This document shows positions 41,140-64,000 of a DNA stretch of 64,000 nucleotides, in pieces. Origin of the DNA: Edaphochlamys debaryana (lineage: Eukaryota; Chlorophyta; Chlorophyceae; Chlamydomonadales); contig JAEHOE010000052.1 of NCBI GenBank assembly GCA_016858145.1, positions 620,001 to 684,000 on the forward strand. The letters are read 5' to 3'. The notes below the pieces were generated by a model that worked only from the letters and a program-made list of their open reading frames with translations, was not told the DNA's origin and searched no databases. The position numbers were made by a program, and so were the translations under genes. The first letter of the stretch is position 1. Every line of letters starts with the position of its first letter.

Positions 41140-44100
41140 TCAAACCGCCGGGGGCTGCGGCTTGCAGATCTTCGTAATCCAGGGGTTGACGGTTGGGTCC
41201 GACAGGGCGGCGTTCTCGTTATCAGCGCTGCCAGGGTAGAAGATCCTGGGGTGCAGGGAGATAAGATGGACGAAATAAGCGGCATGTGGGTCGGGAGGCA
41301 GAGCTTGTTTGGGGGGCAGGCATAGGAGCGCAGTCGGGTGCCTGCCCGAGCCGCCGCTGCCACAGCCAGCGGCCGTCAACCCGCTGCCGACCCCCAACCC
41401 CCGATGTCACGATGTCATGACACGTCTGCCTACGGCGTGCTACGACGCGTTCCTTCACCCTTGCGAGCCTATTACTACCAGACTCGAAGCCCCCCAGAGC
41501 GCAACGGTTATGCGGCTGCTGACCTGTACAGCCCGGCGTTAATGGGGAACTTGAGCGCATCCTGAGTGGCGGTGGCGCCGGCCGACTTGAGGCTGGTGAG
41601 GCTCGCCGTGGGCTTCCAGAGCGCGGGCGGGTACACGGGGTCCTTGTACAGGTCGTACACGACGTTCATCGAGGTGATCTGGAGGCGTGGGGGGCAAGGG
41701 GAGTGTCGAAGTTTGGGAGTTGGGGTGGGGGGGGGTTGTGGGGGGCATGGGAGCTACGGTATGGGTAGCGAGCGGACGTATGAAAGTCGCACATTCGTGC
41801 ATAAGTGCCATGCCCTTCCTTCGCGCGCGGACACGCCGAGTTGGGAGTGGAGAGCTCGGGCTCGCTCAAGGCTGCGCAGGCACCGCCACCCCCAGGAGAC
41901 AGACAGCCCGGACTCACCACCTGGGGGTTGCCCTGCATCGCCAGCGCGGTGGATGCCGTACGCCCCGTGTTGGTGGGGCCCACGTTGTACGACCTGTCGT
42001 ACGACAAGGTGGCGAGCAAGGGTGTGGGTTCCTGACGCCTACGCGGCAATCCGTCCGGTGCATCGGGTCATGGGAAGGAAACAGCAGTACCCGAGTTTCG
42101 GTTCCAGTCCCCTGTTCCCCCCACTTACCTCATCATCTCAGTGTCCTCGTGCACCAGGTTGTGGCAATGGAACATGTACTCGCTGTGTGGTGAAGGGGGA
42201 AGGATGGCACGGAAGGGGCGCAGAGTGAGGAATGGGTGACGAGCCAGGAGGGGCGAACCAGCCCCGCAAGCTCTCGATCGACACCCGCCATAATTGGCAC
42301 CCTGTAACTCACCCCCTGTGCGGCCCGAAGCGGGTCAGCAACGCAACGTCGGAGCTTGGGTTGAGCTGCACCACGTCCTTGGGGGTCAGGCGCTCGTAGT
42401 CATAGACCTGGGTGGGATTGCACAGGGGAGACCGCAAGAGTCAAGTACGGACCGCTAAGCACCCGTACTGCACCCACGCACAGTACGTTCACATCACGTG
42501 GCACGCCCCTTGCACTCTGTCGCACCCCACGCATGTCACGCACCTGCGACTCGTCCCAGTTGCGCGCAAGGACGTAGAAATCGACCAGGTGGATGTGGAT
42601 GGGGTGGAACCAGCCGCCGCCGGTCTCGAGGCACCACAGCTCCCACGTGTTCTGCCCAACGTCGCTCGCGGCAACGCGGGCGGTGTGCCAGGACTCGCCG
42701 TTGATCACCCTGAGGCCGGAGAGGGGAGGGGGAGAAGCAGTAAGAGCCTTAGCACACAAGCATGCCGCTGCCGCTCCCCCTCGCGCCCAGAAACCCCTTG
42801 AAACCCCCAGGGAAGCAGTGCTTGCTCTGCCTGCACGCCTCAGTCCGTGCTCACCAGTGCCCGCGGCGGCGGCCAAACTTGAAGGTGCGCGTGCACTGCT
42901 TGTTGGCCACCATAGCCTTTGCCGCGGCAAAGTCGGCCTGTGGGGAGTGGGAATGATGGGGGTTGCGGAGGGTCAGTGCAGGTAGGTGAGCGATCTTTCC
43001 ATCCCAGGGTCCATTACGTTCTCCTTCAACTCCCGATCAGGCCCACGTCTAGCCAAGTGTACATCAGCTAAGTACTCACGTCCTTCAGGACAGCGTCCAG
43101 TGCGGGGCGTGCGGGCTCAAGGGGTAGGAAAGCAGAGTTGGGCGGCGGGGTCACGGCCTGCGGCTCGATGCGCATGACCAGGTGGCTGTGGCAGAAGAAG
43201 GGCACGTCCTTCATGCGGTAATCGTCCTGGGCGTTCCACAGATAAAGAGTCTTGCCGGCATAGGCCGTGAAGTCGCACACCACCTGGGAAGAAGTGGTAC
43301 AAGGGCGGGGGCGGGATGGCTTAGCTTGTTGTGCTTTGACCTTTCCTCCGTGCTGTTTGCCAACCCTAAGAATATCGCCAGACCAGCCTCCGCCTCACCT
43401 CGTAGCGCTCAGCCACTCCCATGAAGAGACCCGCCCTCGGGAAGGCCGTGGGGTTGCGGCGAATGCCTCCGTCGCCGGCAATGACCTGGCAGACAGAACC
43501 GCTCACGTCCGCCCCCGTGTCATCCACAATCCGAAGCTTCCATGGGCGAGTGGTGGCCGAGTTGAGCCAGCGCAGGCGCTGCCAGCGAGCCTCGGGCTTC
43601 CACACGGGCCACTGGACGCCATTGACGGTGTTGACATCGCCGTACAGGTTGTTCTTGTGGGGGCCCTGAGGGACAGGGTCGCGAAGATGATGACCAGATG
43701 GTGTGTGTGATTTTACTGTACGCCATCGCACTGTCAGTAAATGGAGTGTATTTATATGCCTTTGTAGAACCCGCAGTAACCCGCAACCTCGGGGTCTTTC
43801 GCGGCACGCACCGAGTTCAACATTCTAAAACTCGGGTTGACAGATCGCGACAGAAGGCCGCTGCAGTTCGCGGCAACTATTAGATATGCGATGTTGAGGT
43901 TCGTTGTTTCTGATTATGAAGGTTGGCCTATTGGTCGGCAAGCCCCGAACGACATGCCGCCGACCTGGCCGCCATGCTTGCGCGACAGAGGCGAGCCAGC
44001 CTCACCCAAGTCTCACCTCCCGGTCGTAAAGCAGCTGGCAGCCAGAGTCGAAGACGAGGTCTTTGAAGATCATCGGCGTATCGGGCAGCTCGTCCAGGTT

Positions 44101-47100
44101 CCAGGGCTCGCCGCAGCCGCCGTCCTTCGCAGAGTCGGTGACGACGTACATCCCCGCCAGGCCCAAATAGGCGTTGTCTGGGGGGAAGGCGCGATCCGTG
44201 AGGGTGAAACATGGGTGAGCTGTACGACTGGGACACAGGGGCTGAAGCCTTCAAGATGCTTCACGCAGCTTGGGACCAAGCCTGGCTTCGGACCCAGCAC
44301 GCGCCGCCCTGCGGCGGTACCCTGGAGTGCACTTTCGACGTGCCCTGAGTAAAGCTGCTGCACTCACGTGACGTGATGTCCAGTGCGTGGTCGTGGTACC
44401 AGCCAAAGCCCGGGCGGCGGTTGGCATAGTAGTAATCCTTGCTCTCCCCGCCGCACGTCTCGTCCTCGGCCCAGCCTGGGGCGTTGGACGTTACGGGTTT
44501 TGTCAAGGGGCAGACTTGCAAGGAATGCAGCTAAACCCCAGCCAGAGATGGCAGGTCACGTGTGCCCTGCTGCCGTACAGCCATGCACCCTTTCGCCTCA
44601 CCGTCGTACGGCGCCAGGCTGGCCTCGCCGTGGAGGTGCACACTGATGGGGCGGCCCTGACGACCGTTGGCATCGCAGGGCGGGTACGTTGAAAAGCGGG
44701 TCCCCGCAATCTTCGCCGCGGTCAGCTTGTTGTTGAAGCGAACCAGGGTCTGGGGGCGAGGGCAGGAAATTTTCAAGGGGAGTCTCACTCATACCTCTGC
44801 GAGCAAACCAACTTCGGGATTGCGCAATCAAATCCCAGCAAGGAGATGCAAGCCGGCCAGGCTCCACGTGCGGTGGTACGGATGGCGGGGCATGCAGCTC
44901 GCAAGCCTCGACACCCAAATCACATACCTGACGGCCCTTCGTCACTCGGAACATGGGACCGGGGATGGATCCGTTGTAGGCCAGCAGGGTGGTCAGCGGC
45001 CCCGGGCAGCCCAGGTCCTTAGTCATGATGTCAATGTCGATCTCGTACGCATCGATGGTACGGTCGGTGCCGGGCCTGGGGGTGGAAAGGCAAGGGCAGG
45101 AAAGGGCATGAGCGCGCGAGCTGAATGGAAGCGTTGAAACCGGACAGATGCGGATGCTATGACACGCATTTCTGTCTGGGCTCATTTTGATGTTCGCGCA
45201 CTTGTTATAGGATGCGGCGGGGGTCACGAGGGATGACTTGACAAAGTCCCTGGTGAAGGGCGTCCACGTGAAGGGGCTGGCGGGGAAGCCGCGCACGCGC
45301 ACGTCCGAACCGCCAGAGCACACCTGCGCCCATACCGGTGGCAGAGAGGGACCGTGGCACTTGGCAACGCTGTCTTCTCAAGAGCTAGCCCACCCATACA
45401 ACGCCCGCTCGGCGGCCCGGTTACCCCCGTCCCTCTCCCCAGACGGAGTCCAGCAGCGAAGCCCGCCATGCTGCCGCACGGGCACATCGCCGGTACCCAC
45501 CGAGGCTCCGTTGGTGTAGGGCGAGGCGGGGGGGTTGGCGAGGGTGGTGGCGCCACCCACTGTCACAGGGGTAGCCACGGCGTCGTTGCCGGGGTCCCTG
45601 GTGGGGGCCTCCTCGGGCACGGGGCCGGGGTCGCCGGTGGGCATCCCCGGGTCCGGCTGCGGCGTGGGGCTCACGTCCGCGTAGCGCAGGACCACCTGCG
45701 TGTCCACCACCTGGCGGGGGGGAGGGGGGGGTGAGGGGGTGAGGGGCGGGTGGGGGGGGGGGGAAAGGGGATCAGTACATGACACCCCACGTGGGCCTAG
45801 GGTCTGGGAGGGAGGCCAGGGGAACGCCTGCGTGTCCATCACCTGGTGGGGGGGAGGTCGGGGCAGGGGTGGGGAGGGGCGGGGGGGGGGGGGAGAAAGG
45901 GGATCAGCACGTGACACGTCACGTGGGCCGAGAGGGAGTGGGGTGGGGGGGAGCCAGGGGACCCCCTGCGAGTCGACGAACCAAAGTGCAGCACAGACAG
46001 TGCAAGGGTACCGATAAAATGGATTTCCGGGGTTTCGGTGCGTATGTGCCGAGTGGCTGAAGACGCTGGCGAGGACTGGACCCTGCAGCACGCACCGCCC
46101 TACACGTCCCGAACGCACCTGGCCGGAGGTCGTGTTGAACCGCATGGGGCGGACGCGCGTGGCGCAGCCGCAGCAGCGCTCTGGCGCTGCGATGGAGCCT
46201 GTGGGGAGGGGCAGGCCAGGGAGCTTGAGTCCCGTCGGGTTTGGTCATAGATGGAGGCAAGCACATGAGCTGCCACCAGCAGATAGAGAGGCTTGAGGGC
46301 AGCGGCGCGTCGATGGCACTCACAAGCGGTCCGGGTCAGGCCAAGGAAGCCGCTCGACTTGTAGCAGTCCCTGACGCAAGCGCTGCACGTCGATGCCCCG
46401 CAGGTCTCTGGATGGGAGCAATCCAACGAAGCGGGGAGGCGAGCGTTGTGTGACATGTCAATACCACATGGCCGGGAACACAACCAGAGCAGGATAAGGG
46501 CCCAACCACTTTCCCAGCACTGCTGAGTCCCTGCACCACCTGCACCGCCGCAGCTCCTCGCTGGGCAACGGACACCGGTGCCCTTGGACCCCATGCGCGC
46601 CCTACCGTCGTTACACCAGGTGCAGGTGCTGTAGAGGCTCCTGGTGTCGGCGGTGGCGGGCCCAGCCGTGGCCTGCGCACACGACGCCTCCAGCTGCTGC
46701 CCGCCCGGGCACTCGCTGCCGCTGATGAAAACGGCCTTTGACCGCCCCCAGATGTCCGCACCGTCCGCCTTGGGCGCCCACTTCGCAAACACGGAGACCA
46801 TCTTGAGGTAGGCTGCGCGGTAGTCCCGGTCCCAGGCGGACTGGTCGGCGGCAAAGTTGCGGGTGGCGTCGCGCAGCTGGTTGACCGGGGCGCTGGTCGT
46901 GACGGGGCCCTGCGGGGATGGGTGGGGACACGAACGAGGGAGGAGTGGGGGCACGAAGTGAGCTGGCTAGCGTGTTGGGCTGGCCAGGCACGGCCAGGCC
47001 GGGCAGGCAGTTCTGCCCCTCGCGCCCATGCTGTGATCCCAAGCGCTATGGTTTGGTTATCGCTCTTCTGCTGCGTTGAGAGCGGGGAAACCTTGTCAAG

Positions 47101-50100
47101 GCGCAAACTGAACTCCACATGTTCGGGCCCGGCCGCACCAGAGCGCGCCCATGGCAAGCGGAAGAAATGCAGATGCCTGTTGCGCATGGCGCATGCCACT
47201 GTGAAGCTAAGAGCGCGGTAGTTCCGTCGATTTGGCGCGAGAATGTTGCGCGACTTTGGGCGTGCGCCTCCTCGCTCAAGCCCAGACTGATGTTGATATA
47301 AAGCCTTATACAAATTCATATCTAACAACTCGCTTGTCGCAATGTGTTTCACCGCGCCGCGACCATCCTCCGCCCCCTCCACCCCGAGGCCATGCGCGGA
47401 GCGCGCCGCACGGCCCCCGCGCTTTGACCTTAGCTCGCGCGCACTTCTTATCGCCCAGCATTAAACAGGGCGCAGACCTTTCAACCAGCATGGAGGAAGC
47501 TGACTGTCGTTTTGCTGCACGGCTAGCACGGCACAGTGGCCGTACGGAGCCTTCCTGCCGTACGCACGTACGCACCTGGCACACGAGGCCGGTGTAGGCG
47601 TCGTTGTTGGTGTACCACCAGAAGGAGGAGTGGGGGCAGTTGACGGAGGTGGCGGGCAGGCCGCTGGCGGCGGCGCCCTGTTTGCAGTCAGCGTTGGACC
47701 ACGTGACCTCCACCGGCTCGTCTGGAACCACCTCCTCCGCCATCTTCCCAGCCTGCTTGTTAAGTGGGTGGGCAGGTGCGGGTGAAGGTCTGAGGTCACG
47801 ATAGCAGAGGCACACGGTAGAAGGCCTATGCATCCCTGCTGAGGACCCTCAGCGGGGGCAGGGACGCCACTGACGCTCCCGCTCGGAATGCGGTAATCTG
47901 ACTGGGCCGTTTGGAATGCGGTTGCTGACATTCAGTGGGAGATCCTTCTGGAGGGAAACCGAGAGCCACGCACAGAGCTCACGGCTGTCCGTCTACCTGT
48001 CTGTCCCTACTGTCCCCACGATTCGGCCAGGTGATTGGCCCTGTCGACCCACCCGCTGCTTCTTGAGGACGTTGCGAGCGGCCGCACGACCGGCTTGGCT
48101 GGTGAACTGAGAGCGGATGGAGGATGGAGGAAGCGGCAGAGTAACCGAGAGGAAGGACACACGAGCGCAAGGGAGGGTGCGACGGACGGGTCATTTATCC
48201 GAGCGGCTCGAACTGGCCACCCATTGCCATCCTGGCGCCTCTTTCGGCACCAAGCCCCACCTGCCTCGGGGACCCCGCCGGCTCACCTTGCACGTCTCCA
48301 GCTTGTCCTCTGCATCAATCTCGGGCTCGGTCATTCCGACAATGCGAGTCTCCGCCATGCGCACCTCGTCGGCCGGCACCTCCCGGACCTTGAGAGTCGC
48401 AGAGCATATGTCCTTGTAGTAGTGATTCTCCCACCTGCGAGGTGGGGAGGGGAGTTGGGAAGGGAAGGGGGGGAACTCGAGCGCAGGGGCCAAACGTTCA
48501 GGAGGGCTGCTCAGGGCGCCACAATGTAGGAACAGCGTAAAATCATCTCAGGTGGGAAGCCAGGGAGGCAAGCTGGCCAGGGGCTAAGGGACAGCAGCGG
48601 CGCTGTTAGGGGGCCGCGTGCTTAGCTATTTGGAAGCGAGATAGAATGCTGTGCGCACCTGAACATGCGGACGTTGGAGCAGTCCTGGGTGTCAGGGTCG
48701 CAGAAGTCACTGCGTTCAGGGCCCTTGAAGCAGCCCTGCGTGGGTGCAAACGGGGCGGCGATCACTTTTCCTGTTGGGGTGGCACAGCAGAGCATACCCC
48801 GCACGCTCGCTTCTCTTGCCTCACGCAACACACCTGCGAGTCTACGAGGCAGTGGCTGCCCATCAATGCAGCCGCCTCGCGTGGGGTGAAGCCACGCTCA
48901 GCCCAGAAGTTGAGGAACGCGGCGGTACCGGCGGAGGCGGAGGGCAGGTTGCCTGGCGGGGACGGGCGAGTCGAGTCGACGCGCCCAACGCGCAGGTTGG
49001 CGTTGGTTCCGTCGAGGATGCGGAGGCGGCCGTTGCTGAGGACCTCGGGTGCCACCGCAGCACAGACCTATAGTCAGGGTCGAGCGGGTTTGGGCGAGGT
49101 GTGTTATGGCGTGACTTTTGCCTCGCCGAGTGGCCGGCACAACGGAGGCCCCCGCGGGCCCTGGGCCCCCCAGCGCGCGCGCCCTCGCTGCCCGCCCGCT
49201 GCCCGCCTGCTGCCCGCCCCCCAGACCCACCGCCACGGTGTCTGCCACGCTGATGTCAAAGAACGAAGCGATCTTCTTGGCGGCCCGGGCGGTGATGAGC
49301 GCAAAGTTGTCATCGACACTGCAGGGGCAGGCAGGAGGTCGGCGCGTTCACCATTAGGCAGCCGGGGATTGCAGTACAGGTCCTCGTCTGCCATGTCTAA
49401 TACATCACGCACCCAGCGCCATGCTGTATCGCCAACCTGCCATCGTCTTACTTTTCGGGACGTGCAAGCTCTTCGATAGTCAGGAAGAGCGAGGCGTCTG
49501 CTCCGCCGCACTGGGGGCCAGGGCACTACAGGAGGGCCAGAGGGAAAGAGGCAGATAGATCACAACGTGCAAACCCTCGGAGGCCACCCTGGAGGTACGG
49601 CGCCTTCTAGCGCTTCGGACGTATGCCTAGCAGGGGCATGGCCGGGGATCACCTCAGCGTGCGGCGGCCTGGGGTTGCGCGTGCGGCAGGCCGGTACCCA
49701 GGGGTGGATCAACCCTGCCGGTACCGGCATCCGACAGGGTTGGCTAACCGGAGGCAGGGAAAGGGCCGCGGGGTTCCAATGCTGAGCGGATGCTGCGCAC
49801 CACGGCACGCAGATGCTCGCACCCAGCCATTTCCCCGTTGGAACCCCGCACCCCATTCCATGTGTTCCATGTGCCTATGGAAGATGCATACACGCACGCA
49901 CCGCATTCCGCCTCCCCCTCAAGGACACAGTGCAGGCGTAAGCAAACCATCGATTGGCATGTGCACCCACCTTCGTCACATCCACGCTCTGGGAGTCGTG
50001 GAAGGAGGAGCGGATGAAGAAGGACGCAAAGCGCTTCTCGTACTGAAACAGGGCGCGGCACACGGAGACGACCTGAGGGGAGGAGGTGGGGGGATGGGGG

Positions 50101-50844
50101 CAAGGAGTGGGAAGGGAGGTGAGCCCTGGCGCGATTGAGTTGTGCCCTGACAGCGATAGTGCGCCCGGACAGACGAATAGAGCCGGGTTCATCTGCGAGC
50201 AGCCATCAACCGGGGAGAATAGCGCGTAGTCCACAACTTCTTGCGCTTACCGAGGCCCAGTCCTTTCCGCGCGGGTCATAGTCCTGGCCAGGGGTGCCGG
50301 ATGGCACCTTCGGCGACCAAAGCTTCACGCGGGCGTTCAGGTTAATGACACCAAGGGATGCATGCGAGTCCGCGTAAGTCTTGACGTTTAAGCACAAGAG
50401 GCCCGAGCACTGGACGGGGTTGGTGAGGTAGTTGGTGACGTCGTTGACTGTGCCCGTGCAGGTGGTGACCTGGTGGGCAACGGAGACATGGATGGAGGGG
50501 AGTTGGAGCGAGAGGGCAGGGATGACGAAGGTTGGGACGGAGGGGGCGTGGGGGAGGGTTCGCCGATTGGCCGTGGTGGCCTGTGGTGGCCGGGTGCCAC
50601 CTAGGCACGGCAGGGCCCCTTGCCCGCGCACCTTGCTGCCGACCAGGCCGAGCAAGGACGCGACAGAAGAGGTGATGGCGGTCAGCAAGGATGCAGCGAA
50701 GCCAAACAGCCCTGAGAGGAGCTGGGCCTCCGCGCCAGGGAAAGGACACCCGTTTCGCGACGGCATGAGGGCGATGGCCAGAGCCGCGACAGCGACAGCT
50801 GCCGCTGCCGCTGCTGCGCGCCGACGAGAACGCACTCTTTCCAT
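41140..50844 (-). CDS. Heme peroxidase-multicopper oxidase fusion protein, copy 1 (complete)
   Basis: Twenty-eight exons join in phase to 1318 residues plus TGA. Exons: 50844-50632, 50469-50251, 50072-49971, 49525-49452, 49318-49231, 49067-48834, 48735-48659, 48434-48287, 48106-48053, 47752-47576, 46909-46606, 46407-46324, 46198-46119, 45710-45501, 45323-45202, 45075-44928, 44749-44602, 44475-44368, 44177-44017, 43665-43399, 43283-43080, 42937-42855, 42709-42544, 42407-42313, 42182-42129, 41993-41918, 41678-41524, 41245-41140. Residues 1-30 are a signal or signal-anchor. About 72-560 is a plant-type peroxidase: distal Arg165/His169 (FFIRSSFHD), GGADASLFLT, SVADTVAV, proximal His304 (LMGSHC). 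A Cys-rich segment and Pro/Gly linker (about 564-690) lead to a CotA/bilirubin-oxidase-like multicopper oxidase with HLHG (816/818), WYHDH (855/857), HPIHIH (1137-1142) and HCHNLVHEDTEM (1194-1205, Met axial to the type 1 copper). Probable substrates are phenols, metals or pigments; none can be named from sequence. Confidence 0.9.
45700..45960 (-). repeat. Roughly 123-bp tandem duplication carrying an exon-head echo, fusion gene copy 1
   Basis: The acceptor and first codons of the exon at 45501-45710 (GTGGTGGACACGCAG) are repeated upstream near 45826-45850 as GTGATGGACACGCAG. The flanking G/C-rich intron bases (AAAGGGGATCAG, CACGTGGGCC) are repeated too, so the whole block is a tandem duplication across an intron-exon junction. 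Confidence 0.8.
47005..47480 (-). mobile_element. Dispersed repeat of about 530 bp, inverted copy in a fusion gene 1 intron
   Basis: Read on the minus strand it matches the plus-strand copies near 54.45-55.39 kb and 61.39-61.92 kb, for example CTCGCTCTTAGCTTCA-like, CAACATGTTGAGTTCG-like and GGCCGTGTGGCGCGCTCCGC-like blocks. It lies in the intron 46910-47575, which is only about 196 bp in the sister gene. It has no coding capacity. Ends and target-site duplications could not be fixed by eye. Confidence 0.7.
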
Positions 50845-52872
50845 GGGATCGCAGCTGGGTGTCAGGGGCTTCAGCAGGGAGTGCGCGCGCACTCACGCGG
50901 CTGTTCGAAAGTCGTTGACAGCCGGGGCCCAGCGCCCAAGTAAATTCTCCTATGCAAATGTACACAAAGTAGTGTTTTGCAGGAGGATCGTCATCCGCTT
51001 TGAAAGGACTTGAGCCCTCGGTTCCCCGCGCGGTACGTAATGCAACAGCTCTGGATGCCTAAGCGGGGCCCCGAGTAACCGTGAAGCGGAGTTAATGGGC
51101 AATACATGAAGCCTATGCTGGTGATGAGCATGGCTCGTAACTCACCTGAAACCGCGAAGGGACTCCCAGTCAAGCCGCAGCTCGCGAGCTGTTGGGCCCC
51201 CGCTTGGCACAATAGCTCTGCGATGGCAAGCGACTACTTGACTCAAGTCGGGGAGGCCTTGGGCTGCCGGCGCGCCCAGCGAGACATGTCCGACCTACCA
51301 CGCACCCCTGATGCCCCGGTTCCCCGGCAACGTGGCATCGCGAACAAGAGCACACATGTCAGACGTGAGCCACTAGCATTCATCGGAGCACGACCCACGT
51401 GCCGGGGGTGGACTCTGCACTCCAGACACTGCACGATGGCAATGTCCGTCAGGCGAGTTACCAGCCGCATGGCGAAGTGCGGCGTAGGGGTCTGGCCACA
51501 ATGCCCGCCGTCCCACACAGATCCCCCCCTTTGGATAAGCTGATCAGAAATTGGCCTTTCCGGACGCCACTGCGATGGCCAACGGCCACCTGTCGAGTTG
51601 TCGAACGACCCGCCCTTGACACATCGCCCCTCCGGACGTCACCTCTGTGGCAGCTGTGTGGCATGGATTGTCTCACCGAGTGCATGCATGTGTACCGCCA
51701 CGCGTCTCCCATAGGCCAAACGCAGGCCCCAGGAATGCGTCTCTTCAAGCCTCCTCACCAGCCCTACCTCCGGTCCGGACTCCTCCGGACTCCTCCGGAC
51801 TCCGCCGGACTCCGCCGGACTCCTCCGGACGCCTCGCTCCCTAACTCTTGGGGGTTACACGGCTACCGTAGGCAAGCACGCGCGCGGGTGTTGGGGGCGT
51901 ACCGGTAGATACGGTTCCATGGGCTGAGCAGCCCTTTTGCCCTAGAGCTGGTGGGGCACGGCATGCTTCTCCGGGATCCAGCGGAGGGGCGCCGGGCGCC
52001 ATGGGAGGGGGCCCAGGGCAGGACACGACCCCCAGGGCCCGGGCTGCAGGGGAGGGCTCCCAGGGTGGCACTGGCGGAGGGCATGTGAGGGTAGAGGAGG
52101 GGCGCCGGGCGCTGGGCACCGCCCCCACCAGGAGAAGGCTCCCAGCCAGCACGAAGCTCCGTACGGACGCACGCCGTACAGCGTGATCACGCCGTGTCCA
52201 TAAGTATGAACTCAAGCGAGCTCAGAGCTAGCTGTTCTGTCAGTGACCAGCGAGGCCGGGGGTGGGGGGCAGGGTCGGTCCAGGCAAAGCCGTGCTGGTA
52301 AGCAGCAATGCCCGCGGGTCCTGGGGACCGGCGACAACAGAAAGGCGCGCGTCCCTGGCCGGTGTGAGCATTGCCTTGAGGGGTGGCGAAGCTTGGGACG
52401 CACCGCGAACGGCGCACGCCCTGGTCAGTGGTTCCTCTCGTACCCCTCACCAGTTGCTCGCTGGGAGCAAGTGGCTTGAACCGTGTCGTCACGTGCCCTT
52501 TCGGTAAGAATCCGTAGCAGAAGGGCCGTGGGCAGTTGTGTGCGCCTACTTGTTGTATGCCTGTCACCCCGGTAGGGAGCGAGGCGGGTGTGTGGGGGCG
52601 AACGAAGGCGCCTGAGGACCGCATACCCTAGATCTAGCTTTACCCGCTTCGCACCAGAGTCCAGGAACCCCCGTGCCGTCCTCATACCTCCCCCTTTGCC
52701 ACTACCCCCTTCCCCGCCCTCCCCCCTAACCAACTCCGCATGCATGGCCGGTGGAGTGCCAGGACCCTCCAGCCTATGTACGTGTTCCAGTCTGACGGCG
52801 TTGAAAGAAAATGGCATGCGACAGATCAAGCAGAAGGAAAAGAGAAGCTCGTGCTCTTCGTGCGTGCAGATG
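50845..52872. other. Interval between the two fusion genes (promoter of copy 1)
   Basis: About 2 kb from the start codon of copy 1 to the candidate polyadenylation signal of copy 2. It should include the copy 1 promoter. I see no recognised gene or clear core promoter. It contains the 10-bp minisatellite near 51771-51830 and the inverted pair GGCGCCGGGCGC(C/T) around 51986 and 52100. Confidence 0.45.
51771..51830. repeat. 10-bp minisatellite (TCCTCCGGAC)
   Basis: Six tandem units, two of them with TCCGCCGGAC. It lies about 930 bp upstream of the copy 1 start codon. Confidence 0.95.
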
Positions 52873-52877
52873 TTACA
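52873..52877 (-). promoter_or_regulatory. Candidate polyadenylation signal (TGTAA, minus strand) of the second oxidase fusion gene
   Basis: TTACA on the plus strand, 1.05 kb beyond the stop codon of copy 2, closely matching the spacing in copy 1. The 3' UTR would therefore be about 1 kb in both. Confidence 0.4.
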
Positions 52878-53929: not shown

Positions 53930-56900
53930 CTAGGCGACCGGCGCTGCAGGCTGCGCCTCGCAAATCCTAGAAATCCAGGGGTTGAGGTTCGGGTCGGTCA
54001 GCAGCGTCGTCGACTCGCCATCGGCGGTCCCGGGGTAGAACATCCTGCCGGGTTGGAGGAGGGGCCGCAAGGGGAGGCCAAAGGGTCATGAGCCTGACAG
54101 GCACGGGCGGGGGCACGTCTTGCCGGGACCACCCAGCAAGCGCATCAATCGACAGCAATACCAAGCAGGCCCCTGGCGGGTAGTTCACACTCTGTTCGCC
54201 AAGCACGCAGCGTTGTCCACGCAGCTCCCACCTGTAGAACCCTCTGCGGATGGGGAAAGAAAGAGCGTCCGTGGTTTCGGCTGATGCGAGCTTGAGCGAT
54301 TTGATGCCCGACGTGGGGCGCGCCGCTGCGAGCCCGTATACGGGGTCCTTGTACAGATCGTACACGATGTTGCCGGAGGTAATCTGAGGTAGGAAAACGG
54401 CGGGCCAGAGGCAACCGGATGTCAAGCGGCATGGACATGCGGCATGGCAGTGACAAGAAGGGTGTAAGCTTCCTTGAAGCTGGAGTAACGAGCCCTGGAA
54501 TAAGTGGGCAGCGGGTATGCGTACAGGCACGGTGCAAAGCGGGGAGCCATGCGGCGAGCTCCGCGCGTAGCTTCGGGGGGAAAGGGTGCCGGAGGATGGA
54601 CGCGGGGTAATTCACAGTTCCATGCCGACCAGCGATGAAGAGTGAAACTACTTCTACCTAAGGTATCTGTGTTGCTTGGAAGCAACATATCATATCATCC
54701 GCGGTCGGGCCGACCGACCCCGCAATGGAATGAAAGGCCTCGCTCCGGCAGGAAGTGTGAGTCTGCTCGCACATCAACCCTGCCAGTCATCGCATAGTGC
54801 ATCACAGAAGCTACCACGAGTATTGCAGCAAGTTTGCCCCTAGCCTTCCTTGACATCGACGGCATCGCGTCTGCACATGTGCAGCAGGACATGTTCCAAA
54901 AGCAGCCATGAGTGAAGCATTGACACGCAAGACACTATCAAATCCCGCACAAGGTCGCTCGATGCTGGACGACCCAACAAGCCACGGTGCAAGCACGGTG
55001 CAGGCCGCCGACCGGCGGCAATCTGTTTCAGAAACTTACTCTACTGACGTGAGGTTAGATAGCAACATCGCGCTCGGTTCGGGCTTGACTGGCGAGGGTT
55101 GACCAAAGTCGGCACCGCAACGTCCTCTCGCAGCTGCTGACAGCTGCGCGCGCAAACTTTGCTAACAACCTCGCTCCGAGCTTCACACTGTGCAAGGCAC
55201 CTATAAAAAGGATTGACGGATCGCTCCTCGGGCTATGGGGGCGAAGTGGTGCGGCTGCCTTCTCGCCCAACATGTTGAGTTCGCGCCGGAGAAGGTTCCT
55301 TGCTCTCAACTACACACAATAAGGATAAGCAGACGATAGCCTGTGGCATCGTGGGCTGCGCGTGAGTCGCACGTTTGTGCGTCCCACTACACGCACGCCC
55401 GGGGGGACTACCCAGCCTCAAACCCTCCCCGTGACTTCTTGCATGCCCTACTCCATCTCTGCCCCAAACTTACCACTTCCGGGTTGTTCTGCATCGGCAG
55501 GGCAGAGGCTGCGTTGCGACTGTTCGGGGTGGGTATCACGTTGTACGACCTGCGGAGGGGAGGAAAGGATGGCTGGATGAGGGGCGGGTGGAGCCACAGC
55601 AGCGCATGCTATCTGCAACTATCCCAGCCTCGATCCCAGCAGCCGCCTGCAGGCTGCCGGGCTGTCCATAGCCCGAGTCCGCCGCTCGCTTACCTCATCA
55701 TCTCAAAGTCCTCGTGCACCAGGTTGTGGCAGTGGAACATGTACTCGCTGGACGGTGGGAAAGGGCATGAGGTGCGCGGGCGGGGCAGGCGGGTGAGAAG
55801 GAGGGGAGGGTTTCGTCTCATTGCGGTCTGGACCAGCCTGTCCTGAGCATACTATTCAATTTCAGCAGAGCCGTCCTGCACCTACCTCCACAAAGAAACG
55901 AAGCCCTTTCCTAGGGCTGGCCATACGGTACTCCAACACCGCTCCCACCTTCCCGCCAATCTCTTGCCTCTTACCCCCTGTGCGGCCCAAAGCGGGTGAG
56001 GAGGGCCACGTGGGACCCCGGGTTGAGCTGGACCACGTCCTTGGGGGTCAGACGCTCGTAGTCATAAACCTGGACGGGATTGCACAGGGAAGCCCGCAAG
56101 AGTCAAGCCGCGGTGGCGAGGCGAGCAAAGAGTCAAGTATGGACCGCTGCGCACCCGTACTGCACCCACGGTACGTTCACATCACGTGGCACGCCCCTTG
56201 CACTCTGTCGCACCCCACGCATGTCACGCACCTGCGCCTCATCCCAGTTCCGCGCAAGGACGTAGAAATCGACCAGGTGGATGTGGATCGGGTGGAACCA
56301 GCCGCCGCCGGTCTCGAGGCACCACAGCTCCCACGTGTTCTGCCCAACGTCGCCCGCGGCAACGCGGGCAGAGTGCCAGGACTCGCCGTTGATCACCCTG
56401 AGGCCGGAGAGGGGAGGGGAAACAGCAGTGCGAAGAGGAGTGGGCAGTCAGGTAGAGATGACAGGGCGCAGGATACGCGTTGTGCCGCGCGTTGACAGGG
56501 AAAGCAGACTCGCTCCCCGAGGCCCGAGCCCGTGCTCACCAGTGCCCGTGGCGGCGGCCAAACTTGAAAGTGCGAGTGCACTGCTTGTTGGCTACCATAG
56601 CCTTCGCCGCGGCGAAGTCAGCCTGTGGGGAAGGGGGAGTCCACGAAGGGGTAAACCGCGGTGCCTCCCCAGCAGCGTTGCTATCTTATTTTGGCGTAGC
56701 TAAGTCTTCCAGGGACAAACCCCCCTGGGTGGGCCGGATTAGCTAAGTGCATGAAAGGACTGTGGCGCTGCAGCCGGCCTAATTAGCCAAGTGACGGCCC
56801 CATTAGCCAGGTGACGGACAGGGGGCGGCGCAGGCACAATGAGTCCTTTCTCTCAGGTAGGGTGCCAACAGGGCAGGTTGCGACACACGCCCTACGCCCA

Positions 56901-59900
56901 CAAGAAGGCGCTTCATCCATGCACACACCCTGCCGCGCGGCTCTGCGGGTTGCCAGCCCTACCTATCGGGTCCACGCCTTGCTCACACCCCAAAGATTCG
57001 CTAAGTACTAGCAAGGAAACGAGGTGCCTTGGCCGGAAAATTAGCCAAGTTCCTCAGGGACAAAAGTCTCAGATTCCAGGAATTAGCCAAGTTCACTTGG
57101 CTAAAAAACGTAAACTTAGCTAAGATAGCAACACTGCTCCCCAGATCCCGGCTATCCTGGGCCCCAATGTCATTTGCACACTCACGTCCTTCAAAACCGC
57201 GTCCAGAGCGGGCTTTGCGGCGACGACAGGGTTGCCCGGATTAAAGGCAATGGCCTGGGCCTGGGCCTGAGTCAGAGCCGGGACAATGGCCTGCGGCTCG
57301 ATGCGCATGACCAGGTGGCTGTGGCAGAAGAAGGGCACGTCCTTCATGCGGTAATCGTCCTGGGCGTTCCACAGATACAGAGTCTTGCCGGCATAGGCCG
57401 TGAAGTCACAGACCACCTGGAATGGAGTGGGACAAGGGCGGGGGTGGGGATCGGGTGCGGTGGCTTAGCTCGTCTTGCGTTTTGGCACTGTCGCACCCAG
57501 CCGCGTCCGCCGCCTCACCTCGTACCGCTCAGCCACTCCCATGAAGAGACCCGCCCTCGGGAAGGCCGTGGGGTTGCGGCGGATGCCTCCGTCGCCCGCA
57601 ATGACCTGGCAGACAGAACCGCTGACGTCCGAACCGGTGTCATCCACAATCCGAAGCTTCCATGGGCGAGTGGTGGCCGAGTTGAGCCAGCGCAGGCGCT
57701 GCCACCGGGCCTCGGGCTTCCACACGGGCCAAGCCACGCCGTTCACCGTGTTGACATCGCCGTACAGGTTGTTCTTGTGGGGGCCCTGAGGGACAGGGTC
57801 GCGCAAATGATGACCAGATGGCGTGTGTGATTTTACTGTACGCCATCGCACTGTCAGTAATTTGAGTGTATTTGTATGCCTCTGTAGAACCCGCAGTAAC
57901 CCGCGACCTCGCGGTCTAGCAAGGCACGCACCGAGTTCAACATTCTAAAACTCGGGTTGACAGATCGCGACAGAAGGCCGCTTCAGTTCGCGGCAATTAC
58001 TAGATATGTTATGTTAAGGCTCGTTGCTGTTAATTATCAAGGTTGGCCAAGGTCGGTAAGCCCCGAACGACATGCCGCCGACCTGCCAGCCATGCGCGAC
58101 AGCGGCGAGCCAGCCTCACTCAAGCCTCACCTCCCGGTCGTAAAGCAGCTGGCAGCCAGAATCGAAGACGAGGTCTTTGAAGATCATCGGCGTATCGGGC
58201 AGCTCGTCCAGGTTCCAGGGCTCACCGCAGCCGCGCTCCTTCGCAGAGTCGGTGACGACGTACATGCCGGCGAGGCCGTAGTAGGCATTGTCTGCGGGGA
58301 AAGGTAGGGGGAGCAAGGCATAGCGTGAGCGTGGGGTGTACGACCGAAAAGAGGGCGGTCAAAGGGGGCGAGCCAGGCGTAGGGTGTAAGCGGGTGTGAG
58401 TGCAACGTGTACGGCTGCTACCCTGGCTGGCTTTTGATGAGCGGCGGTGCACTCACAAGATGTGATGTCCAATGCATGGTCGTGGTACCAGCCAAAGCCG
58501 GGGCGGCGGTTGGGGTAGTAGTAGTCCTTGCTCTCCCCGCCGCAAGTCTCGTCCTCAGCCCAACCTGAGGGGGTGAGGAAGGGCCGTTCAGGCAACAGGT
58601 TCGCACACAGGTGCGTGCAAAACTTCCATAACGCCAGCAGCCGCAGATGTATGGGCAGATGCCGTACCGCCTCACCGTCGTACGGCGCCAGGCTGGCCTC
58701 GCCATGGAGGTGCACACTGATGGGGCGGCCCTGACGAGTGGCGGTGTCGCAGGGCGGGTGCGACACGAACGGCGTTCCCGCAGTCCTGGCCGGGGCCAGC
58801 TTGTTGTTGAAGCGGACAAGCGTCTGAGGCAACGGGGGAGAAAAAACGAGGCCGCACACATGCATGGAGCGGGGTTGGATAGGAGGGGCCCTCAAGACCA
58901 CGTACGCAAGGGCGGGAGCAGGTGACAGGCAGGGTTGACCTCCCTGCATGCTGAATTCAGGCAGAGGGTCGCCCCCTTCTCCCAGCCAGGCACCACACCT
59001 GTCGGCCCTTGGTGACTCGGAAAGTGGGGCCTGGGATGGAGGTGTTGTACGCAAGCAGCTTGGTGATCTTTCCAATCCCGCACAGTCCTAGATCCTTCTC
59101 GATCCAGTCAATGTCAACCTCGTAGGCGTCGACGGTCCTGTTTGTGCCAGGCCTGTGTGCGGGTGCGTGAACAGAGAGTCAGAGCGCTTTCCGAGACACC
59201 AGCAGACAAGCGGAAGCAACCCGCTCAGCTCTCACGGCATTGAGTGGTACCCCTGGCACTCACTTGTTGTAGGAAGCGGAAATCCTCGCGGCGGGGGGAC
59301 TGCTGAACGGTTTGGTGAAAGGAGCGAACACGAAAGGGCTTGCCGGAAAGCCGCGAACGCGGACAGCGCCACCACCAGAGCAGTCCTGGTCCCGAGTGTG
59401 TGGCAGGGAGAGGGGCGTTAGACTGGGACCAGGGTTGCCCTGCAGCAAGCGAAACGCAGCCTCCGGCCCATGGCAACGGCTCCCACGGCAGATCAGAGAC
59501 CACTCACTCCTGCACCGGCGTAGGGTGACACGGGCGGGCTGGCCATGACACCATTCACAGCCACCGAGGGGGGCATGGCGTTCCTGTTCGTATCCTCATC
59601 GAAAGCAGGCTCAGGCGCCGGCAAAGAGTTGTCCGTGGGCAGGCCGGGGTCGGGCTGAGTCCAGGGATTGACGTCCGCAAAGCGCAGGATGACCTGCGTG
59701 CGAACAACCTGCGGCGGACAACCAGGTGCGGATGGAATGAAGGGTACTGAGGTGAGGGGGATGCATGCGGCATGTGCCGTGCCGTGCAGCTGTAGCAGCT
59801 GCCTGCCAAGGGTGCGCCCAGTGTGGACTCTCCCTCCCTCGGCTCCCCTAGCGCACGCACCTGTCCCGAGGTCTTGTTGTACTGCAGCGGACGGAGGCGT

Positions 59901-62900
59901 GTGTCGCAACCGCAGCAGCGCTCCGGCTGGACAATAGTGCCTGAGCGCGCGTTGGACCAAATGGATTAGTCAGTGCAAGCATACATGTGGGAGCCTGGCT
60001 AATGTCGGGGCTCAAGGCCAGTGCGGTGACCGAAGCCATAGCAAGCGCCTGAAAGCAACTCACAGGGTGTGCCCAGGAGGCCGAGGAGCCCTCCCTTGAC
60101 GCACTTCTTGAGGCAATAATTGCAGGTGTCCAGCGAGCAGGTCTCTGTGAGCAAGGAGGCGAGGGCGTACAAACGAAGTCAGGGGCACGGCTTGCGCTTG
60201 GTCAGGTGTCATCATGCATCTCTGCCTCACCCACCCGCAGACAAATCCCTCCCCTCCCCTCCCCTCCCGTCCCGTCCCGTCCCGTCCCCTCCCCTCCCCT
60301 CCCCTCCCCTCCCCTCCCCTCCCCTCTCCTCCCCTCCTAGGTCAGAAGAGTGTGCTCACCATCATTGCACTCGAAGCAGTCGTTGTACAGCTCCCTGGTA
60401 TCGGCATTGGCCGTACCGTTATACGACTGAGCGCAAGACGCCTCAAGCTGGTGCCCGGTGAAGCACTCGCTGCCGCTAATGAATACCGCCTTTGACCTGC
60501 CCACGGAGTCCACACCGTCCGCCTTGGGCGCCCATTGAACGAATCTCGTGACCATCTTGATGTACGCACTGGCGTAGTCCCGATCCCAGGCGGCCTGGTC
60601 GGCGGCAAAGTTGCGGGTGGCGTCGCGAAGCTGGTTGACCTTGTCGTTGCTGGTCACCGGGCCCTGGCGGACGGGGACACGAGGGGCAAGGATGCGGAGG
60701 GCACAATGACATGCAGATGTTGGTGCAAGACGCAGGCCATGGGAGCGAAGGCCACGTGGCTGGGTCATGCTGGAGAACGCCCCCGGGCACACACACTGAG
60801 TGCGGTGCCGTACATCTGCCGTACAACGCCCTCCTGCCGTACGGTACGCACGCACGCACCTGGCACACGAGGCCGATGTATGCGTCGTTGTTGGTGTACC
60901 ACCAGAAGGAGGAGTGGGGGCAGCTGACGGAGGTGGCGGGCAGGCCGCTGGCAGCGGCGCCCTGTTTGCAGTCGGCGTTGGACCACGTGACGGAAACGGG
61001 CTCGTCGGGGGCGGCATCCTCGGGCACCGTGCCAGCCTGCAGGAGAGTTGGTCTCTTTGTGACACGGCTGGCGCGGCGCAGGGCGCGGCGCGGCAGGGCG
61101 CCGCAGTGCGCACCGGCGGGACCTACCGCCGACTTGCGCTGCAGGGGCGCTGGCCTAGCTAGCAGCAGAGGAGCCTATCTGCCCAAGCCTCCCGTCACGG
61201 ACCCACCCGTTGCTTCTTCAGGACGTTCTGTGCTGCCTGCTGGCCAGCCTTGCTGGTAAACTGCAAACAGGTAGGGAAGGAGCAACCAAGGAAGGGGTCA
61301 CTCAGCCAAACTGTCATCAGCGGCCCCCCGGGAGCACATATGCCACATGAGCGGTGCGCCCCAGCGCTTCCCACCTCGACCCACACCACAAGACAAGATG
61401 GGTGTCAGCTTCCTCGAAGCTGGGAAATGGGCTGAGCCCTAGAATGGCTGGGCAGCGGTATATGCGTGCAGGCACGGTGCAACGCGCGGGGCCGTGTGGC
61501 GCGCTCCGCGCGAAGCTTCGGGGGGACAGGGCTGAGGATGGACGCGGGGCGAAACACAATTCCACGCCGACCGGCGACAAAGTGTTGCCCTTACTTCCAA
61601 GGTAAGATAGCAACATCGCGCTCGGTCCGGGCTTGGTCGGGGGGTTTGACCGGAGTCGGCACCAGCCATCCTCGCAACAGCCGCGCCCAAACTTGTCGAA
61701 ACTACCTCGCTCTTAGCTTCAAAGTGCTCTATATATACCTATCGTTTGGAATGCTCCGTGGGCTATGGGTGCGAGGTGCGACTGCCTTCCCAACACGTTG
61801 AGTTCGCGTAGGGTCGATAAGTTTCCCTGCTCTTAATCACAAGCGATAGGGATAAGGAAACTAAAGCTTGTGGCATCGCGGGCTGGGCGAAAAATCGCAT
61901 GTTTGTGCATGACGCAGGCACGGACACCGACACGGGGTAACTCATAGAGGCTGAGCCCCCCGGCTGGCGCTTCGCGCCAGGCGCTACGCGCCGGGGGCTC
62001 AGCCCAAAACCCGCACGATACGCCTCGCCTCACCTTGCACTTCTCCAGCTTGTCTTCTGCTTCATACTCGGGCTGAGTCATGCCGCGGATGGGGGTCTCC
62101 ACCATGCGCACCTCGTCGGCAGGCACGTCCCGGACCTTGAGGGTCGCAGAGCAGATGTCCTTGTAGTAGTGGTTCTCCCACCTGCGGGGGCGGGGGCGCG
62201 CAGGGGTAGCGGGATAAGCGGGATAACTTTATCCGGTCCAGGGCGGGAAGCACGGAAAGCTAGCGAGGGACGCCCGGGATGGAGGCAGGCTGAGTGACGA
62301 CAGAGTGAAAGCTGACTCGTAGCGCGGGCGGGCATTGGGAGCGAGTGCGCAAAAACATATCGTAGTTCTAAATCTATGGAAGGCGCGGTGGGTCAGCACT
62401 CAGCAGATCTATCTGGGATCTGGGTCAGGAGACACAGCGGGGCAGAATGGGGTGGTCTGCATGGTCGAGAAGCAGCCTCCGGACTGGATGGGGAGTGGAG
62501 GACTGCTGGGTGAAAGTTGCGCCCTACATCCCACGCACCTGAACATGCGCACGTTGGAGCAGTCCTGGGTGGAGGGGTCGCAGTAGTCACTGCGGCCAGG
62601 GCCCTTGAAGCAGCCCTGCGTAGGTGGGACGGAGCAGGGGGCCGGCGGCCAGCTTCGGGTGGGGGCTGCAGGAGCCACGCACAGCAGCATACGCTGCGCA
62701 CGCCAGCACGCACGCTTACCCAGCACATGCCGCTACGCACTCACCTGCTCGTCGACCAGGCAGTGGCTCCCCATCAGCGCGGCTGCCTCACGTGGCGTGA
62801 AGTCGCGATCAGTCCAATAGTTCAGGAACGTGGGGGTAGTGGCGGAAGTGGCCGGCAGGTTGCCGGGTGGCGCAGGGAGAATGGAGTCGAGGCGGCCCAC

Positions 62901-64000
62901 TCGGAGGGCTTTGGTGGTACCGTCAAGGATGCGGAGCCGGCCATTGCTGAGGACCTCGGGTGCTACAGCCGCACAGACCTGAGGGAGGGTCACAAGGGAG
63001 TGGCGTAGGAAGCGGGTGGTTTGTGGCATAATGACATGCCATGGTGACGGAATGGTTGCCTACCCTATGACCTAGCTAGCTGGAGGGGCGGCATGACGAA
63101 GTGACCACGGGTGCCCTGACGTACGGCGGGGGCAAAGCGGCCCATAGGGAGGGCACAGTAGACACATTCCTGCGACACGTCTACCCCCCCAACCCACCGC
63201 CACGGTGTCTGCCACGCTCATGTCAAACCAGGAGGCAATCTTCTTGGCGGCTTTGGCGGTGATAAGCGCAAAATTGTCGTCGGCACTGAAAGGATAACAG
63301 ACAATTATGTAAGAGGATGTATGGCTCAGACAGGCCAGGGTACAGAGCCCATGCACGGCAACAGCCTCTGCACAAGCAAACCGCTCCGCTCACTTTTCGG
63401 CACGGGCGAGCTCTGCGATGGTGAGGAAGAGGGAAGCGTCGGCTCCGCCACAGTTAGGGCCGGGGCACTGCGCGGGTACGGTCGGGAGTGGAGAGCAGCA
63501 GCTGAGGGACCAGGGCTCGACGTGGCAAGGGCGCACAGGGGGATACTCTATGTACGGCTACCCCCCTTTAAACGCAATGCAGGACGATGCTCACTTGCGT
63601 CACGTCCACGCTCATTGAATCGTGGAAGGAGGAGCGGATGAAGAAGGACGCAAAGCGCTTCTCGTACTGGAACAGGGCGCGGCACACGGAGACGACCTGG
63701 GGGGAAGAGGGGCAGGAAAGGATATATAGGGAGGGGTCGATGAGGAGGGGCAAAAGAGTTGCAGCCCTAATAAGAGGTTACTGTCAAACCGCAGCTGACC
63801 ACAGGTGTTGCGGTAGGCACGCACCAGGTGAGCATATCTGAGCTGTTACCGTTGCGTGCGCCTTACCGAGGCCCAATCCCTCCTGGCCGGGTCGTAGTCA
63901 TTGGCGGCCATGCTACTCGGCATCTTGGGCGACCACAGCAGCACTCGGGCGTTGATCTCTGCCACCAGAGTCTTGTTGTGCGTCTCGGCGTAGGCGGTCA
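53930..64000 (-). CDS. Heme peroxidase-multicopper oxidase fusion protein, copy 2 (5' end outside window)
   Basis: Twenty-seven exons, all in phase, the first cut by the window edge: 64000-63867, 63696-63595, 63467-63394, 63285-63198, 62978-62745, 62615-62539, 62181-62034, 61260-61207, 61036-60860, 60663-60360, 60144-60064, 59940-59861, 59708-59508, 59385-59264, 59152-58999, 58823-58676, 58564-58457, 58291-58131, 57785-57519, 57416-57186, 56622-56540, 56397-56232, 56069-55975, 55747-55694, 55549-55474, 54383-54232, 54044-53930 (TAG). Gene structure matches copy 1 exon for exon. Peroxidase residues (FFIRSSFHD, GGADASLFLT, ALMGSHC) and copper motifs (HLHG, WYHDH, HPIHIH, HCHNLVHEDFEM) are all kept. 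Differences include a 9-residue longer loop after FCHSHLVMRIEPQA and a diverged Cys-rich segment (CSLDTCNYCLKKC). Several introns are enlarged by repeats. Same strand and order as copy 1 indicate tandem duplication. Confidence 0.9.
54440..55385 (+). mobile_element. Dispersed repeat, interrupted copy in a fusion gene 2 intron
   Basis: Left part about 54440-54665 and right part about 55055-55385 match the uninterrupted copy at 61.39-61.92 kb in the same order. The middle ~390 bp has no counterpart there, so a second sequence seems to have inserted into this copy, or the other copy was deleted. The host intron (54384-55473) is 1.09 kb, against 239 bp in copy 1. Confidence 0.7.
56673..57136. mobile_element. 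Non-autonomous hAT-type element (MITE), 464 bp
   Basis: Terminal inverted repeats CAGCGTTGCTATCTTA (56673-56688) and its near-perfect complement TAAGATAGCAACACTG (57121-57136) differ at one position. They are flanked by a perfect 8-bp target-site duplication CTCCCCAG (56665-56672 and 57137-57144). The CAG-N-G terminus and 8-bp duplication are hallmarks of the hAT superfamily. The inside has repeated TTAGC(C/T)AAGT motifs in both orientations and no transposase. The element sits in a fusion gene 2 intron; the matching copy 1 intron is about 140 bp and lacks it. Confidence 0.9.
60247..60336. repeat. CCCCT/CCCGT pentanucleotide array
   Basis: About 18 pentamers, mostly CCCCT with a block of four CCCGT, in the intron between the exons at 60064-60144 and 60360-60663 of fusion gene 2. 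It is close to a CCTAG acceptor-like sequence on the opposite strand that is probably irrelevant. Confidence 0.95.
61386..61925 (+). mobile_element. Dispersed repeat of about 530 bp, best copy, in a fusion gene 2 intron
   Basis: This is the only uninterrupted forward copy. It begins near GTGTCAGCTTCCTCGAAGCT (a short palindrome) and ends near a GCATGTTTGTGCATG segment. A TATATATA stretch lies near 61731-61738 with no open frame after it. The host intron (61261-62033) is 773 bp, against 180 bp in copy 1. It looks like a short non-autonomous element; class unknown because clear terminal repeats were not found. Confidence 0.7.
61951..62003. repeat. GC-rich palindrome (hairpin) in a fusion gene 2 intron
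   Basis: CTGAGCCCCCCGGC at the left pairs with GCCGGGGGCTCAG at the right, with one unpaired base. The loop holds a nested GGCGC-TTC-GCGCC hairpin and a second CGC-rich dyad. It lies 30 bp upstream (in transcription) of nothing coding, just inside the intron after the exon ending at 62034. Confidence 0.85.

Follow-up and report, generated by a model that had tools for sequence, protein, structure and literature searches.

A heme peroxidase and a multicopper oxidase encoded as one predicted secreted protein in Edaphochlamys debaryana and other volvocine algae

Does a single gene of the green alga Edaphochlamys debaryana (Chlorophyta; Chlamydomonadales) encode both a heme peroxidase and a complete multicopper oxidase, or have two neighboring genes been run together? 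The question is raised by contig JAEHOE010000052.1 of assembly GCA_016858145.1, whose positions 620,001 to 684,000 (the 64,000-nucleotide window analyzed here, numbered from 1) carry two such candidate genes in tandem, from position 41,140 onward. An earlier account made from the letters alone (the sequence-only reading) had proposed one gene in each case, with the peroxidase ahead of the oxidase. The computational analysis described here bears this out, and leaves little doubt that the fusion is real, conserved and the product of a single gene: the exons close in phase in both copies, 16 named volvocine proteins are modeled as fusions, and peroxidase and oxidase loci pair seven times out of seven in the genome. 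All three findings speak against the alternative that two adjacent genes, one for a secreted peroxidase and one for a secreted multicopper oxidase, were merged by gene prediction alone, which is highly improbable.

The coding region of the first gene (copy 1) was rebuilt by an independent splice-site search, anchored on conserved exon cores and requiring GT-AG introns. It consists of 28 exons at 50844..41140 on the minus strand, where all the copy 1 features given below also lie, and it holds 1318 codons plus a stop, with no internal stops. These are exactly the exon and codon counts first proposed. The top-scoring splice pair was taken at 26 of the 27 junctions, while at junction 6 the second-ranked donor was used because copy 2 conserves it. 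The whole fusion (41140..50844) corresponds to HYH03_010165 (P0002), a deposited hypothetical protein of E. debaryana, 1313 amino acids long and 100% identical to the copy 1 protein apart from five missing residues. These residues, CPGPQ, stand at the start of exon 4 (49451-49525), and their loss looks as if an acceptor 15 bases downstream had been used. Since CPGP is kept at this place in 15 other volvocine database rows and in copy 2, the 1318-codon model is probably the better one at exon 4.

A Pfam search of the joined protein, one of the checks that the sequence-only reading had called for, matched both kinds of family. The peroxidase family PF00141 covers residues 147-347 (E 1.4e-16; 61.5 bits against a gathering score of 27), the oxidase families are PF07732 (E 2.3e-10) and PF07731 (E 4.3e-21), and no further Pfam family appeared in this protein up to E 1. 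Between the two halves the splice model places a Cys-rich segment in exons 12-13 (46119..46407) and a Pro/Gly-rich linker in exon 14 (45501..45710). They are followed in exon 15 (45202..45323) by a conserved pre-oxidase segment (C...GFPASPF..TPF), which is also found in oxidase-only relatives.

Copy 2, the tandem paralogue, was traced by exon comparison with copy 1. Its exons 2-28 lie within the window at 53930..64000 on the minus strand, and its exon 1 (64280-64489), 280-489 bases past the window end, was taken from the adjoining stretch of the contig. The full gene (64489..53930, minus strand) has 28 exons and 1326 codons plus a stop; exon 12, hidden from the first comparison by its divergence, was located separately through its reading frame and the pattern of its Cys residues. 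The phase of every one of the 27 introns agrees with copy 1, and 26 of the 27 intron positions share an alignment column, so that the two paralogues do share one exon order, as had been claimed. The ratio of nonsynonymous to synonymous substitution rates (dN/dS, Nei-Gojobori) between the copies is 0.28 over the whole length. By region it is lowest in the oxidase (0.23), followed by the peroxidase region (0.26) and the N-terminus (0.27), and reaches 0.31 in the Cys-rich and linker region (residues 515-695) and 0.43 in the C-terminal tail. Purifying selection acts on both halves and on the linker. An intergenic region would not look like this, and the value of 0.31 therefore speaks for a coding linker and against two merged genes. 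What a merger does have in its favor is the 666-base intron that separates exon 10 from exon 11 in copy 1, together with the low identity of the Cys-rich-to-linker region (59.1%), which with the C-terminal tail (58.4%) is among the parts least conserved between the copies. TGTAA, the chlorophyte polyadenylation signal, is absent from the introns between the peroxidase and oxidase halves of both copies. It occurs once within copy 1, in the coding sequence of exon 11, and within copy 2 in exon 1, the next one lying in each case about 1 kb past the stop. As the nearest TGTAA after each stop is itself so distant, its absence between the halves argues only weakly against two genes.

How do the two halves occur across the genome? 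Exon 20 (43399..43665), the oxidase exon most similar between the copies (98%), served as one query and detected at least seven loci, and peroxidase exon 6 (48834..49067) likewise detected at least seven. These form one-to-one pairs, the two members sharing a strand at a spacing of 4.2 to 5.3 kb and the peroxidase always lying upstream: two on contig C52, three on C159, one on C140 and one on C3, where the oxidase match is limited to residues 40-89 of 89. Within these lower-bound counts, the whole-genome search of E. debaryana returned no peroxidase exon without its oxidase exon, and no reverse case. The genome thus contains seven or more such loci, not only the two tandem copies first described. 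The three loci of C159 lie near one another, as do the two of C52. In the oxidase tree described below, the four E. debaryana proteins included group together, which points to a lineage-specific duplication of the family.

Protein starts were also compared. In the spliced coding sequence of the joined proteins, no hydrophobic stretch led by a Met was seen ahead of the oxidase. Among 11 oxidase-only relatives whose N-termini were inspected by eye, by contrast, 10 start with such a hydrophobic stretch immediately ahead of the pre-oxidase segment (P0059 being the exception). The metagenomic proteins P0018 (from a 3917-base contig) and P0020 are fused as well. One gene does not necessarily mean one mature chain, and the translated protein could be cut into peroxidase and oxidase subunits within the secretory pathway. 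The Pro/Gly linker is variable, and the purified laccase of Tetracystis aeria is said to be hetero-oligomeric, both of which would suit such a cut; it is nonetheless rather unlikely.

Each homologue search scored only the 8000 candidates sharing most words with its query, and the distribution that it yields is a lower bound. The first search returned 51 proteins, including 16 named volvocine ones: five from E. debaryana, two from Chlamydomonas reinhardtii, five from C. incerta, two from C. schloesseri, and one each from Pleodorina and Volvox. PF00141 and PF07731 are present in all 16, and PF07732 in 15 of them, so the search for this architecture in chlorophytes, another check proposed at the outset, found annotated proteins with both peroxidase and oxidase families. 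The three families are also all present in the metagenomic proteins P0018, P0020 and P0024. Relatives without PF00141 were found by the same search in the rotifer Adineta vaga and the diatom Stephanodiscus triporus. With P0018 as query there were 159 matches; among the best 120, five (P0018 included) have all three families and one more has PF00141 and PF07732, the rest being nearly all oxidase-only proteins of about 650 residues, one of them from the rotifer Rotaria sordida. P0019 carries the apparent end of a P0018-type peroxidase, an oxidase and three cellulose-binding CBM1 modules. The peroxidase piece P0174 stands, as does P0019, on a 13,488-base contig; the two are possibly parts of one gene, and there are hints of an enzyme aimed at cell walls. 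P0173 is a class I-like peroxidase of the P0018 type, with no oxidase and with a long N-terminal part that includes a hydrophobic stretch.

What kind of enzyme is each half? In copy 1, exon 1 (50632..50844) encodes a basic N-terminus, an Ala-rich hydrophobic stretch and GAEAQ, a probable signal peptide to judge from its sequence. The sequence-only reading had taken this part for a signal-anchor, but a GAxAQ or VDAQ-type end recurs among the rows whose N-terminus is complete and fits a cleavable signal peptide better, which is the more likely interpretation. Motifs were counted over 18 rows: copy 1, copy 2 and P0002-P0017 (P0002 being copy 1 as deposited). Of these, 17 have the distal R..FHD motif, which forms in copy 1 the distal heme helix R165-S-S-F-H169-D of exon 3 (49971..50072). 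The proximal GSH motif is found in all 18, with His304 (LMGSH) encoded by exon 6, the exon seen in seven genomic copies. The distal Arg/His and the proximal His named in the sequence-only reading are accordingly present. A third motif, W.YTxNDA (17 of 18 rows), contains a candidate proximal Asp. In copy 1 this is Asp454 of WWYTNNDA in exon 10 (47576..47752), an assignment that seems probable when set beside LNADM in the P0018-type peroxidases. The automatic alignment does not set LNADM opposite W.YTxNDA, and the structural model has low confidence in this region. The few gaps in the motif counts come from P0017, which starts past the distal helix, P0016, which lacks the NDA region, and P0006, which lacks the WYHDH stretch of the oxidase; all three look like truncated or mis-spliced models.

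The peroxidase domain probably takes up exons 2-11 (46606..50469), on the evidence of PF00141 and of a fold alignment based on a low-confidence model, with a probable last helix, WDRDYRAAYLKMV, in exon 11. For structure prediction P0018 and P0026 were folded as stand-ins for the full-length fusion, and the structures were aligned with VIA-align; the predicted fold of P0026, a volvocine-type peroxidase, aligns over a span wider than residues 147-347. Because the probable Asp and last helix lie about 150-195 residues past the proximal His, the peroxidase fold probably extends into part of the Cys-rich segment. The order of peroxidase and then Cys-rich segment stands, although the segment is probably not wholly separate from the fold. 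Among structures in the Protein Data Bank (PDB), the volvocine peroxidase half matches 1ly8 'Peroxidase' (2.3e-6), which we take to be the class II enzyme of Coprinopsis, ascorbate peroxidase of class I (3.6e-6) and peanut peroxidase of class III (0.018). For P0170, a second volvocine-type peroxidase, the PDB gave no match at E 0.001. A third homologue search (27 matches from 8000 scored candidates), tried as a route to class placement, returned mostly short proteins of the same types and gave no class. With the non-animal heme peroxidases (ascorbate and cytochrome c peroxidases of class I, the Coprinopsis, manganese and lignin peroxidases of class II, and class III) this half shares the distal Arg/His, the proximal His, the probable proximal Asp and PF00141. 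It differs from them by a large insert between the proximal His and the probable last helix, as well as by the attached oxidase, and is not assignable to one class.

The oxidase half is more easily placed. Its copper motifs are HLHG in exon 17 (44602..44749), WYHDH in exon 18 (44368..44475), W-F-HPIHIH in exon 23 (42544..42709), with the type 1 Cu His and a Trp two residues ahead of it, and HCHNLVHEDTEM in exon 25 (42129..42182), with type 1/3 ligands and the axial Met. Over the 18 rows H.HG is kept in 18, WYHDH in 17, W.HPIHIH in 18 and HCHN..HED..M, including the axial Met, in 18. Among solved structures the bilirubin oxidase of Myrothecium verrucaria is closest (E 3.2e-73), followed by CotA (about 1e-38), and the half shows a three-cupredoxin-domain fold with one set of copper motifs, its sequence aligning along its whole length with a three-domain enzyme. 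The earlier assignment to a CotA- or bilirubin-oxidase-like enzyme with all ligand motifs and an axial Met is thus supported. The Trp two residues ahead of the type 1 Cu His is common to the fusion and the M. verrucaria enzyme. It presumably corresponds to W396 of bilirubin oxidase, which forms a cross-link with the His and tunes the copper site; according to their PDB titles, the solved bilirubin oxidase structures include W396 mutants. Unlike bilirubin oxidase and the CotA-type three-domain oxidases, the oxidase here occupies the C-terminal region of a longer chain, behind some 700 residues that include the heme peroxidase, and ends in a conserved tail (YRIFYP...NPW...C; exons 26-28, 41140..41993) common to relatives without PF00141. 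Another multicopper oxidase is encoded elsewhere in the genome (G000:C134:192587-194886), in a 468-amino-acid open frame with PF07732 and PF07731.

Could this half oxidize iron for uptake, as algal FOX1 and plant LPR1 do, while the peroxidase removes H2O2? The comparison with LPR1 assumes that the first His of HPIHIH is the type 1 Cu ligand, as we take to be established for CotA. Chlorophytes do have multicopper ferroxidases, but Fox1 has six domains, according to the excerpted text of PMC9168544, whereas the oxidase half here has three. The acidic position of LPR1 (D462, two before H464 and one residue of a triad, in the same excerpt of PMC9168544) is moreover a Trp in 18 of 18 rows, and a ferroxidase role is decidedly unlikely. 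It might also be imagined that only one half works as an enzyme and that the other is a structural or binding module without catalytic activity, a view helped by the strong divergence of the volvocine peroxidase half from solved peroxidases and by its inserts. Yet 17 or 18 of the 18 rows retain each of the heme-pocket and copper motifs, and within the volvocine group peroxidase and oxidase have diverged to the same degree (distance ratio 0.97, from 45 pairs among 10 selected rows), which makes an idle half improbable.

Was the fusion made once or several times? A tree of the oxidase half was built from 47 rows, counted after P0006 and P0025 had been dropped as incomplete, in which a sample stands for the oxidase-only proteins (P0056, P0057 and P0129 along with every sixth protein from P0059 to P0169). 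The volvocine fusions cluster together (support 100), and P0018-type fusions form another group (support 94, judged against other fusions only), inside which two rows without PF00141, P0056 and P0065, also fall. Within the volvocine group (10 of the 18 rows) identity is 0.74 for the peroxidase and 0.73 for the oxidase, and within the P0018 type (5 rows, 10 pairs) it is 0.64 and 0.69, with a distance ratio of 1.22. Between volvocine and P0018-type fusions (50 pairs) it falls to 0.21 for the peroxidase against 0.48 for the oxidase, and between volvocine fusions and P0024 (10 pairs) to 0.27 against 0.45, giving distance ratios of 2.9, a value inflated by saturation, and 1.9. In a second alignment, the identity of P0024 to each of the eight others compared is 0.15-0.25 in the peroxidase and 0.45-0.57 in the oxidase. 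Ascorbate peroxidase is matched at 1.6e-21 by P0173, of the P0018 type, as compared with the 3.6e-6 of the volvocine type. Because the peroxidase halves are far more diverged than the oxidase halves between types, yet equally diverged within the volvocine group, one oxidase lineage was probably joined to different peroxidases, the fusion arising more than once. Two points count against several origins. Replacement of the peroxidase after a single fusion would give the same picture, and a single clade uniting every fusion withstands the approximately unbiased (AU) test (p 0.060). So do the other groupings: volvocine with P0018 type (0.32), volvocine with P0024 (0.55), P0018 type alone (0.46) and P0018 type with P0024 (0.084).

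What, then, might such a protein do? Peroxidases and laccases work side by side in the making and breakdown of lignin, and multicopper oxidases and heme peroxidases have each been linked to Mn(II) oxidation in other systems. The mechanism that we favor, with about an even chance of being right as a whole, is that of a secreted dual oxidant with tethered O2 and H2O2 sites, acting on phenolics and perhaps on Mn(II). Each gene would yield one secreted protein of about 140 kDa, made of the heme peroxidase, the Cys-rich segment, a flexible linker and the three-domain oxidase. The oxidase half would take single electrons from phenolics or Mn(II) and reduce O2 to water, and its semiquinone products would, with O2, yield superoxide and in turn H2O2. 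The peroxidase on the same chain could spend this H2O2, along with that made by the cell, on the same class of substrates. The result would be an extracellular oxidant with two electron acceptors, not wholly dependent on outside H2O2, whose metal centers would cooperate through shared substrates and products rather than by direct electron transfer. Mn(II) is a plausible second substrate because of the link just mentioned for both kinds of enzyme, and because filtrates of a Chlamydomonas isolate oxidize Mn(II) in a superoxide-dependent manner via an unidentified soluble protein, as stated in an excerpt of PMC6890756.

Several observations weigh against this proposal. The Mn(II) link to the Chlamydomonas isolate runs through the activity of its filtrates and not through its genes, and no laccase activity was detected in C. 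reinhardtii or V. carteri, according to the available part of a review (PMC8517187, citing Otto et al., 2015). The peroxidase half is so weakly related to solved peroxidases (best E 2.3e-6) that its substrate cannot be read from relatives, and the structure prediction for P0026 is poor (mean pLDDT 39), so that no residue geometry was taken from it. P0026 and P0170 are moreover volvocine-type peroxidases without an oxidase, although their contigs, of just 2787 and 1578 bases, may have been truncated. A bolder version would have one eukaryotic secreted oxidase lineage capturing heme peroxidases of unrelated kinds on two or, more probably, three occasions at the least, because a tethered O2-reducing oxidase feeds the peroxidase H2O2 from its own products. 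Such a self-fuelling peroxidase would be the missing soluble algal oxidase of Mn(II) and phenols; this larger scenario is doubtful.

Elsewhere in the window, a tandem array at 32140-34486 comprises about 22 copies of a 104-base unit (or 11 of 209 bases), 95% alike, in a stretch of strong GC skew, and the longest open frame across the array matches no Pfam family. A second array, at 30019-30510, has four copies of 117 bases that are 93% alike. Ten of the longest open frames in the remainder of the window gave no Pfam matches.

How new is this layout? The laccase of T. aeria is likewise a green algal, extracellular phenol oxidase, which Otto and Schlosser are said to have described in 2014; the likeness is one of description. 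The fungal Hybrid B heme peroxidases, as presented in an excerpt of PMC5571214, are also natural fusions of a heme peroxidase with another module, but the partner there is a carbohydrate-binding domain and not a second redox enzyme. In the open-access literature, a body of papers from which subscription journals are mostly absent, no account of a natural peroxidase-multicopper oxidase fusion was found, and the same literature yielded no papers with the identifiers XP_001690611, XP_001690431, HYH03_010165 or VOLCADRAFT_87571. The suggestion that no well-described enzyme has this layout holds in that respect, but 16 annotated volvocine proteins are already in the databases. The novelty is one of description, probable recurrence and testable function, the sequences themselves being already deposited.

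The finding has consequences for two current questions. In the excerpted text of the review cited above (PMC8517187), class III peroxidases are exclusive to streptophytes, polyphenol oxidases and laccases carry question marks for chlorophytes in a table, and green algal laccase-like sequences are considered more likely to be ascorbate oxidases. As its oxidase is of the bilirubin-oxidase/CotA kind, the fusion family is probably not what that review classified, and it bears on whether chlorophytes have laccases and polyphenol oxidases at all. It bears as well on which soluble extracellular protein lets algal filtrates oxidize Mn(II), the activity reported in the excerpt of PMC6890756. Two relatives occur in C. 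reinhardtii, where mutants can be made, so that both questions are directly testable; and if the two centers cooperate, the family would offer a ready-made model of combined H2O2- and O2-driven oxidation.

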